Source: Pelagibacterium sediminicola (GTDB lineage Bacteria; Pseudomonadota; Alphaproteobacteria; Rhizobiales; Devosiaceae). Taken from it: a DNA stretch of 64,000 nt. The position numbers and the translations under genes are program-made. The stretch spans positions 62,001 to 126,000 of the forward strand of contig NZ_QMEL01000006.1 in the NCBI RefSeq assembly GCF_003390885.1, in the 5' to 3' direction. The first letter of the stretch is position 1. The number at the start of each line of letters is the position of its first letter. The notes beneath the pieces are model-generated. The model saw nothing but the letters and a program-made list of their open reading frames with translations. It did not search any database and was not told the DNA's origin. Shown piece after piece: positions 32,062 to 63,805 of the stretch.

Positions 32062-32392
32062 CGATGCTTCGGCTTGCGCCGAATCCCCCCTCCCCTTGCT
32101 GCGCTCGCAAGGGTCCACTGGACCCTTGCGTTCCGGCGATGCCGGAACCGCTTGCAAGTCCCCCATAAGGGGGGAGGTGTTGGCCTTGTGCGTATGGGGG
32201 CGCCCAGGAAAAGAAAGCACCCTCCCCTTGATGGGGAGGGCCGGGGAGGGGTGAGGCCACAAGCACAAATCCATATGCGATAGCCCTGCACAAGGGGGGA
32301 CTTTCAGGCGGTTCCGGCAACGCCGGAACGCAAGAGTCCAGTGGACCCTTGCGAGCGCCGAAAGGGGATTCGGCGCAAGCCGAAGCATATGG
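32062..32392. repeat. Family B hairpin repeats B1, two inverted copies
   Basis: A 540-base gap between the tRNA and the next gene is mostly repeat. One family B unit runs from about 32062 to 32283 (ends CTTCGGCTTGCGCCGAATC and a CCTCCCCTTGATGGGGAGG hairpin). A second, inverted partial unit runs from 32288 to 32392 (ending GGATTCGGCGCAAGCCGAAG). Each holds the nested two-hairpin module (32097-32162 and 32297-32365). Confidence 0.8.
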
Positions 32393-34865: not shown

Positions 34866-35168
34866 AGCTCCCGCTCCATCGCTTCCCTCCCCCTTGAGGG
34901 GAGGGATTGAGGGTGGGGGGAGCGGAGGCTGCTGGAAACGCAGCGTTTTCGGAAGCATCGCTGCACCCCTCCCCAGCCCTCCCCATCAAGGGGAGGGTGT
35001 TTCCTTTGCTTGGCTGTCTCCATACGCACAAGGCCAGCACCTCCCCCCTTGTGGGGGACTTTCAAGCGGTTCCGGCAACGCCGGAACGCAAGGGTCCAGT
35101 GGACCCTTGCGAGCGCAGAAAGGGGAGGGGGGATTCGGCGAAAGCCGAAGCATATGCGATAGCCCTGT
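34866..35168. repeat. Family B hairpin repeat region B2
   Basis: A divergent unit (34866-34930, CCCTCCCCCTTGAGGGGAGGG) is followed by a full family B copy from about 34960 to 35168, ending GGGGGATTCGGCGAAAGCCG. The copy contains the nested module at 35055-35125, with hairpins GTTCCGGC/GCCGGAAC and GCAAGGGTCC/GGACCCTTGC (loop AGT). Confidence 0.85.
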
Positions 35169-37140: not shown

Positions 37141-37270
37141 GCACCGCAGCCCCCTCATCCGACCTCCGCTTCGCTCCGGCCACCTTCTCCCACGAGGGGA
37201 GAAGGGGACACCGTGGATGTGTCGGCTCTTGAGCCCCCCTCTCCCCTCGTGGGTGAGGGGGCCAGCGATG
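37141..37270. repeat. Family A hairpin repeat, copy A4
   Basis: Starts GCACCGCAGCCCCCTCATCC and ends CCAGCGATGC. Contains CTTCTCCCACGAGGGGAGAAG and CTCTCCCCTCGTGGGTGAG hairpin parts and the spacer with TCGGCTCTTGAG. It lies between convergent genes, 24 bases after the HhH-domain gene. Confidence 0.85.
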
Positions 37271-51688: not shown

Positions 51689-51882
51689 CATCGCAGGCCC
51701 CCTCATCCGACCTCCGCTTCGCTCCGGCCACCTTCTCCCACGAGGGGAGAAGGGGAGCCGTGGCGCAACCATACGAGCCCCCCTCTCCCCTCGCGGGACT
51801 TCGAGGCGGTGGCGCAGCCACCAATCGCTCCAGTGGAGCGATTGGAGCTGAAGAAGGGTTGGGGGTGAGGGGGCAGCGATGC
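51688..51882. repeat. Family A hairpin repeat A5 with nested module
   Basis: Ends GCATCGCAGG...CAGCGATGC, hairpin part CTTCTCCCACGAGGGGAGAAG and the spacer variant GCAACCATACGAG. The second hairpin is interrupted by a ~63-base module (51795-51857) carrying hairpins GGTGGC-GCA-GCCACC and CAATCGCTCC-AGT-GGAGCGATTG. Between convergent genes. Confidence 0.85.
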
Positions 51883-54370: not shown

Positions 54371-54519
54371 AACACCGCTGCCCCCTCATCCGACCTTTCG
54401 CTTGCGCGAAAGCCCACCTTCTCCCACGAGGGGGAGAAGGGTACTCCGTGGGTGTTTCGGCTCTTGAGCCCCCCTCTCCCCTCGTGGGAGAGGGGCTGGG
54501 GGTGAGGGGGCAGCGATGC
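54371..54519. repeat. Family A hairpin repeat, copy A6
   Basis: Between the same-strand hemB and RDD genes. Contains the extended left arm CTTTCGCTTGCGCGAAAG, hairpins CTTCTCCCACGAGGGGGAGAAG and CTCTCCCCTCGTGGGAGAG, spacer TCGGCTCTTGAG, and right end CAGCGATGC. Confidence 0.85.
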
Positions 54520-61816: not shown

Positions 61817-61958
61817 ACATCGCTGGCCCCCTCATCCGACCTTTCGCTACGCGAAAGCCCACCTTCTCCCACGAGGGGAGAAGGGGAGCCATGGGGCAAC
61901 CATACGAGCCCCCCTCTCCCCTCGTGGGAGAGGGGTTGGGGGTGAGGGGGCGCGATGC
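61817..61958. repeat. Family A hairpin repeat A8 inside the rib operon
   Basis: Ends CATCGCTGGCC...CGCGATGC. Contains CTTTCGCTACGCGAAAG, CTTCTCCCACGAGGGGAGAAG and CTCTCCCCTCGTGGGAGAG, with spacer variant GCAACCATACGAG. It separates ribD from ribE, genes that otherwise belong to one operon. Confidence 0.85.
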
Positions 61959-63654: not shown

Positions 63655-63805
63655 GGCTTCACCCCTCCCCAGCCTCCCCATCAAGGGGAGGGTGTATCCT
63701 TTTCCTTGTTGTCTCCTATCGCACAAGGCCAGCACCTCCCCCCTTGTGGGGGAGGTTGGGAGGGGGGATTCGGCGCAAGCCGAAGCATATGCGATAGTCC
63801 TGCTT
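63655..63805. repeat. Family B hairpin repeat B3, without nested module
   Basis: Starts near CTTCACCCCTCCCCAGCC, has CTCCCCATCAAGGGGAG and CCTCCCCCCTTGTGGGGGAGG hairpin parts, and ends GGATTCGGCGCAAGCCGAAG. Unlike B1 and B2 it lacks the inserted two-hairpin module, showing the uninterrupted form of the family. It lies downstream of nusB. Confidence 0.85.

Follow-up and report, generated by a model that had tools for sequence, protein, structure and literature searches.

The window, that is, the whole 64-kb stretch of DNA analysed here, carries a short folded module that is nested in repeats of two families, A and B, and whose stems differ between copies in both arms at once, which raises the question of what kind of element this is and whether its arms are kept complementary at the level of DNA or of RNA. 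The reading that we favour, with a probability of roughly 0.6, is a mobile but non-autonomous interspersed repeat with a defined structure, belonging to the Hyphomicrobiales and ~85-90 bp long with four helices (P1 to P4), of which the module in the window is a P4-less derivative.

The type A module lies on the plus strand at 51795..51858 and consists of P1, P2 and P3, without P4. Its P1 is formed by the 5′ arm CTTC (51799..51802) and the 3′ arm GAAG (51853-51856), followed inwards by the P2 hairpin GGTGGC-GCA-GCCACC (51808..51822) and the P3 hairpin CCAATCGCTCC-AGT-GGAGCGATTGG (51821..51845), all on the plus strand. The host is a family A repeat with two CTCCC..GGGAG-type hairpins (51698..51873, plus strand, ends set by eye), and the module is placed after a GGGA within the 3′ arm of the second host hairpin. 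Three type B modules were observed as well, one in a family B host at 35055..35124 (plus strand), one at 32297..32366 (plus strand) with a single uncompensated P3 change (A.C) and a host whose 5′ hairpin arm is missing, and one at 32093..32162 on the minus strand with the P1 subtype CTTGC/GCAAG. The earlier note had placed modules at these four sites, and both sequences and coordinates agree with it. Its statement that five of the ten pairs of the second hairpin differ between the types, CAATCGCTCC/GGAGCGATTG versus GCAAGGGTCC/GGACCCTTGC, was borne out, with the changes at pairs 1, 2, 4, 5 and 7 all compensated and the AGT loop identical, and the two types are homologous outside the loop. The first hairpin, also described there as changing in both arms, does differ in its arms, but not by base-for-base compensation, the lengths being 6 bp and 8 bp. 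The empty family B site at 63655..63805 (plus strand, host hairpin 63734-63756), which has no module, is real. P1 pair 8-65 is C-G in the type A module at 51795-51858 and T-A or G-C in type B, and folding z scores against 200 shuffles were -4.8 for the type B module at 35055-35124 and -3.3 for the type A module at 51795-51858. Module-free family A hairpins (CCTTCTCCC..GGGAGAAGG, CCCCTCTCCC..GGGAGAGGGG) are also found in the window, at 2287-2309, 37183-37205, 54417-54440 and 61862-61935, among others.

A genome-wide collection with a covariance model, proposed beforehand as the way to examine the module, was carried out with R1, a model made from the type A and type B modules, and revealed 24 copies of three types in the own genome (G000; 3.24 Mb, 46 contigs) at E <= 0.004, with four of type A, 14 of type B and six of type C. 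The 18 matches of types A and B reached E <= 1e-12, and the six of type C (GGGATTGAGGAATGTCCCGAAGGGCAAATCGCTCCAGTGGAGCGATTTG...), a type missed in the earlier note that occupies the first hairpin of family A, stood at E ~0.003. The modules start at a GGGA that belongs to the 3′ arm of host hairpins resembling CTCCC..GGGAG; at 32297-32366 the host 5′ arm is missing, and locus L043 was read without its left side. The 9-mer TCCASTGGA alone was uninformative, with 34 sites in the own genome versus 26 for the reversed control; all 34 were examined, and 23 were modules and 11 were not. P1 covaries among the own-genome copies, pair 8-65 being T-A, C-G or G-C, and paired P3 changes are clustered in L021 (GCAGGGC/GCCCTGC). 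Uncompensated P3 changes were observed in L002, L008, L014 and the window copy at 32297-32366, together with a G.T pair in L043. In the alignment of own-genome types A and B (17 rows, 12 distinct), 97.6% of the cells form pairs, compared with 38-51% when the structure is slid, with a covariation of 0.251 versus 0.053 in shuffles. Chance palindromes were therefore rejected, since the folding z scores and this pairing and covariation all exceed their controls.

The full element, ~85-90 bp in length, is a three-way junction of P1, P2 and a P3 capped TCC-RGT-GGA, which is followed by the hairpin P4. P4 has a GA/GA internal loop (GCCAT-GA-GAGC-TAT-GCTC-GA-ATGGC in relatives), and P1 often has GA/GA inside it too. 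A strict text pattern for P4 was present in 46 of 102 distinct matches inspected, with several others carrying a diverged P4. P4 is absent from the own-genome copies that were read, and the best own-genome match to the whole-element model R2 has an E value of 2.4e-8, versus ~1e-16 in Devosia. The module in the window is a 3′-truncated, P4-less derivative of the ~85-90-bp element, and elements also occur without host repeats; the nesting in two repeat families reported in the earlier note holds, but the module extends beyond these families and is incomplete in the window, being a shortened version of an order-wide element, which is host-free in other places. Head-to-tail arrays of elements occur, and the P4 loop may hold another module (L121, L125). 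Several variant forms were also observed. A mini form that retains P1 and P4 and has neither P2 nor P3 lies downstream of the L315 element (GGGTGAGGAGCGATAGCGACGAACG...) and occurs in L411, L412 and L413; at L083:1392-1442, P1 and P3 are merged into one long hairpin with no P2; and at L182:5961-6045 the usual GGT loop of P3 is replaced by its reverse complement ACC, an inversion that template switching predicts.

Matches to R2 (E <= 0.001) were obtained in 116 of the 136 genomes searched from the family that includes Devosia and Pelagibacterium, and in 55 of 397 genomes of the order, 37 of the latter outside the family and in ten families, while R1 matched 21 of 61 genomes, the own one included, at E <= 0.1; loci and genomes were selected by their matches. 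Four genomes searched singly contained from at least 34 to at least 95 copies each. Copy-rich relatives comprise Pelagibacterium montanilacus (G003), Cucumibacter marinus (G016), Devosia enhydra (G026) and Devosia indica (G027). The exact P4 pattern was found in at least 120 stretches of named genomes, with Devosia, Cucumibacter or Pelagibacterium accounting for 111 among the matches listed. When plasmids were searched with a copy of Rhizobiaceae-like type, the matches listed comprised 27 records from Rhizobium, two from Agrobacterium and one from Neorhizobium.

The element was compared with known RNA families and repeats. Among the 4227 covariance models of Rfam, the window gave a tRNA only at the gathering cut-off, and 11 element loci searched at E <= 0.5 gave no family at gathering score; sX4 overlaps L064 1497-1667 at 30 bits, under its gathering score of 70, and an adjoining tRNA touches the element by one base, while among the matches listed no further one covers an element. 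A known Rfam RNA was rejected on these grounds. The REP/BIME repeats are closer, being short, palindromic and extragenic, with compensated stem changes and some copies close to stop codons. Excerpts of PMC3733652 and PMC12306157 describe sub-families with complementary stem changes, some of them near stop codons, those of PMC3733652 state that G-T pairing is often observed in REPs, and the excerpt of PMC12306157 cites Liang et al. 2015 for REPs within 15 nt of stop codons that stall ribosomes. However, REP/BIME units are 20-40 bp long with tag tetranucleotides, whereas the element has three to four helices with GA/GA motifs, no wobble excess in P3 and no RAYT in its copy-rich genomes.

The last point bears on a classical REP moved by a RAYT (Y1) transposase, for which the short, palindromic, extragenic form and the frequent vicinity of stops would speak. 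The RAYT family PF01797 was matched in 8 of 61 genomes, just one of which (G025) also has R1 matches, and in none of G000, G003, G016, G026 and G027; nor was a GTAG or CGTC tag found conserved beside the stems in the listed copies when compared by eye. A RAYT-moved REP was rejected because PF01797 is absent from the copy-rich genomes, and we regard it as very improbable. No mobiliser was found, PF01797 not tracking the copy-rich genomes. RIME1 and RIME2 are palindromic repeats of ~100 bp, RIME having been described in the chvI-chvG intergenic region. They resemble the element in being ~100 bp long, palindromic, intergenic and multi-copy in Rhizobiaceae. These Rhizobium-specific intergenic mosaic elements are named as S. 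meliloti repeats in the parts of PMC2245857 and PMC2573895 that were available. The S. meliloti plasmid pSymB (1.68 Mb) gave one chance-like match (E 0.06) with no core or P4, and no Sinorhizobium appeared among the 30 matches listed in the plasmid search with the element. RIME was provisionally rejected, to the extent that pSymB, the S. meliloti replicon covered, allows. Br-REP1 of Bradyrhizobium, with three stem-loops in 3′-UTRs (excerpt of PMC5082802), is likewise a three-stem-loop repeat of an alphaproteobacterium, but the core given in that excerpt, CCGGAATCTCGAGATTCCGG, is unlike P2, P3 and P4 of the element when compared by eye alone. Among the matches listed in the literature search, which covered mainly papers outside subscription, there was no Devosia or Pelagibacterium repeat of such kind. 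The best reading of these comparisons is a REP/RIME-like palindromic mosaic repeat that probably forms a separate family.

Mobility rests on presence and absence at two orthologous sites. The first lies on Rhizobium plasmids, at the 3′ end of a gene for the substrate-binding protein of a sugar ABC transporter, where 3 of 11 records, picked from 384 matching, harbor the element (L315, L410 and L412, the latter truncated) and 8 do not. A C-terminal VLG followed by the stop is present in all 11 records, and in the filled ones, read by eye, the TGA of the element occupies the position of the native stop codon. Among the matches listed, the element lies at a sugar ABC-transporter gene in 16 of 30 plasmid records. 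The second site, before an IclR gene on pRL11 of Rhizobium johnstonii 3841, is filled in one of five records and empty in four relatives; the queF gene of another strain likewise ends at the GGGTGA of the element. No clear target duplication was observed at the two empty sites, and, as regards a comparison with MITEs, which have terminal inverted repeats and a target-site duplication, the complementary arms of P1 lie close to the termini of the module.

A preference for gene 3′ ends was observed, with the upstream stop codon often within the 5′ arm of P1. From 172 elements whose context was determined, 31 lie at locus edges, 39 inside a mechanically called ORF (some of these ORFs surely spurious) and 102 between ORFs, the latter comprising 39 tandem co-oriented, 18 tandem opposed, 35 convergent and 10 divergent arrangements. 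A co-oriented ORF ending between -150 and +75 of P1 was present for 74 of 144 distinct elements, and in 26 of these 74 its stop ends at P1 offset 0 to 8, versus ~3 expected under an even spread, a count that is partly built in, as the in-frame stop of the element ends any ORF running into it; the native stop was matched at the same codon at the ABC-transporter site only. Other neighbours were noted as well. A parS-like GATTCACGTGAAAC stands directly before the element in five Devosia-genus genomes (L258, L266, L270, L281, L283), the L064 element of Cucumibacter marinus abuts a tRNA 3′ end, and a tRNA-3′-end-like stretch follows each element in L064, L082 and L099 of that species.

This context raises the possibility of a cis- or trans-acting RNA element at gene 3′ ends, each copy being selected for its RNA structure and serving, for example, to stabilise the mRNA or in translation termination. 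Co-orientation with the upstream gene, closeness to stop codons and the RNA-like three-way junction are in its favour, whereas the upstream gene is on the opposite strand in 28 of the 102 intergenic elements, several own-genome copies are uncompensated, and Rfam gave no gathering-score match.

Orientation was also compared with GC skew. Of 172 loci with a non-zero skew value, most of them from Devosia and not all independent, 141 have the element on the G-poor strand and 31 on the G-rich one. The own genome shows no such bias (10 versus 9), a point against the mobile repeat, and the bias is weak both in the other genera (8 versus 5) and beyond the family (7 versus 4); a replication-strand rule was consequently set aside. 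Exact P4 motifs, by exhaustive pattern search, lie almost all on one strand in G070 (15 to 3) and G080 (14 to 0), but G090 has 9 to 6 and G127 has 14 to 9; G070, G080 and G127 are Devosia-genus genomes. Along the chromosome the sign of the GC skew is for the most part constant and does not switch, with raw values positive in all 20 windows of G070, where the sign is kept across the parS-like cluster, and negative in 16 of 20 of G080. Third-position skew was negative in 9 of 10 in G127 and positive in all four element loci of CP104974.1 (L174, L191, L222, L235). The skew of Pelagibacterium G001 is mixed.

Whether the structure itself is maintained was assessed in larger sets. Alignment A4 holds 28 distinct sequences and was made with MAFFT independently of the structure; in it, 91.8% of the cells are paired versus 31-47% when the structure is slid, both partners change in 19 of 28 pairs (134 cells), and covariation is 0.446 versus 0.122 in shuffles and at most 0.117 for slid structures. 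Alignment A6, with 123 distinct rows fitted to the model and hence leaning towards it, gave 94.6% pairing cells, double changes in 24 of 28 pairs and a covariation of 0.283 versus 0.064 in shuffles. The slid controls carry more weight than the shuffles, because related sequences can exceed shuffles without any structure. Between 20 independent orthologous pairs of copies there were 423 unchanged pairs, 16 compensated changes, seven G.T, four A.C and three other mismatches, and four double changes that were not both standard pairs. This count leaves P2 aside, as in many copies the register of the model puts it in the wrong place; with P2 included, 86 non-independent orthologous pairs gave 66 compensated, 42 wobble, 15 A.C and 67 other changes. 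L242 and L190 differ at 2 of 99 bases, both within one P4 pair, with flanks 83-84% identical, and L146 and L207 show compensated P3 changes between flanks that are 83-89% identical. A4, A6 and the 20 orthologous pairs support what the earlier note proposed, namely selection or copying of the folded form as a structure. Its caution that uncompensated stem changes at the same rate would weaken structural selection applies in part, as 14 one-sided changes stand against 16 compensated ones in the 20 pairs with P2 omitted.

If pairing were kept at the RNA level, one-sided changes to G.U should exceed those to A.C. In P3 of 181 unique elements, found with at least 9 of 11 pairs required and the loop constrained, the one-sided states were 12 G.T, 12 A.C and 19 other. 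The same states were counted for 114 unique copies chosen by P4 only (8 G.T, 12 A.C and 15 other), three of 117 with a weak or masked P3 having been set aside, and for the 123 rows of A6 (14, 12 and 15, respectively). These counts speak against the RNA element when set beside 21 G.T and no A.C in 16 tRNAs from the same loci, a small control in which the finder scores pairing and standing pairs, not changes, were counted. P4 differs, with G.T versus A.C at 9 versus 2 in A6, 5 versus 1 in A5 and 3 versus 3 in A4, A5 and A6 being fitted alignments, and P1 gave 9 versus 6, 2 versus 2 and 2 versus 2, respectively. As a result of the excess in P4, the argument for DNA-level change rests on P3, and the RNA element was weighted up; the retention of structure between orthologous copies and their 7 G.T versus 4 A.C also favour it, and P4 may be under RNA selection. 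Taken as the explanation of the whole element, it is nevertheless unlikely in our estimate. The P3 pattern fits either DNA-level paired change, for example by template switching, or strict selection on moving copies, and proves neither.

Template switching can produce paired stem changes in one event and leaves inverted loops as a footprint, according to the excerpt of PMC8794818; hairpins maintained in this way share the paired stem changes of the element, but it is a mutation mechanism and not a repeat family. Its extreme form would have the arms match only because any palindrome is homogenised, the element being neutral, unselected debris. That agrees with paired P3 changes without wobble excess, with the clustered paired changes in L021 and with the inverted-type loops ACC and ACT, seen once each in the 114 copies. 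It does not agree with the RGT loop, kept in 169 of 181 elements (loop constrained by the finder) and in 99 of 114 copies (loop not constrained), with the conserved GA/GA motifs, or with the presence/absence at sites and the order-wide spread, and we consider it quite improbable. The conserved loops and GA/GA motifs require selection beyond any template switching.

For the mobile structured repeat that we favour, copies would spread as folded single strands through a postulated mobiliser, and the complementarity of the arms would be kept by a restriction of copying to foldable copies, by template switching in replication that transfers the sequence of one arm to the other, or by both. The truncation in the own genome may have arisen by recombination or deletion between the AGAAGG of the element and that of the host hairpin, and hairpins lying in a transcription unit might act on the mRNA 3′ end or the stop-codon region, as is reported for stop-proximal REPs. 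A more specific version, in which the element is copied as a folded single strand with no known transposase, prefers hairpins and stop codons, lends its own TGA as the stop and has arms that co-evolve largely by DNA-level copying, is tentative and, taken as a whole, doubtful.

Covariation is usually taken as proof of a functional RNA. In this large multi-copy family, paired changes abound without enrichment of wobble intermediates in P3, the main hairpin, which is relevant to the question of whether RNA covariation can be imitated by processes at the DNA level. The family also represents an unlisted structured repeat, often on stop codons, of plant-symbiont and soil-bacterial genomes; mRNA ends may be altered by it, and searches for small RNAs may be misled. 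If the reading of folded-strand spread and DNA-level copying were true, compensatory change by template switching could be followed in this family as in a natural experiment.
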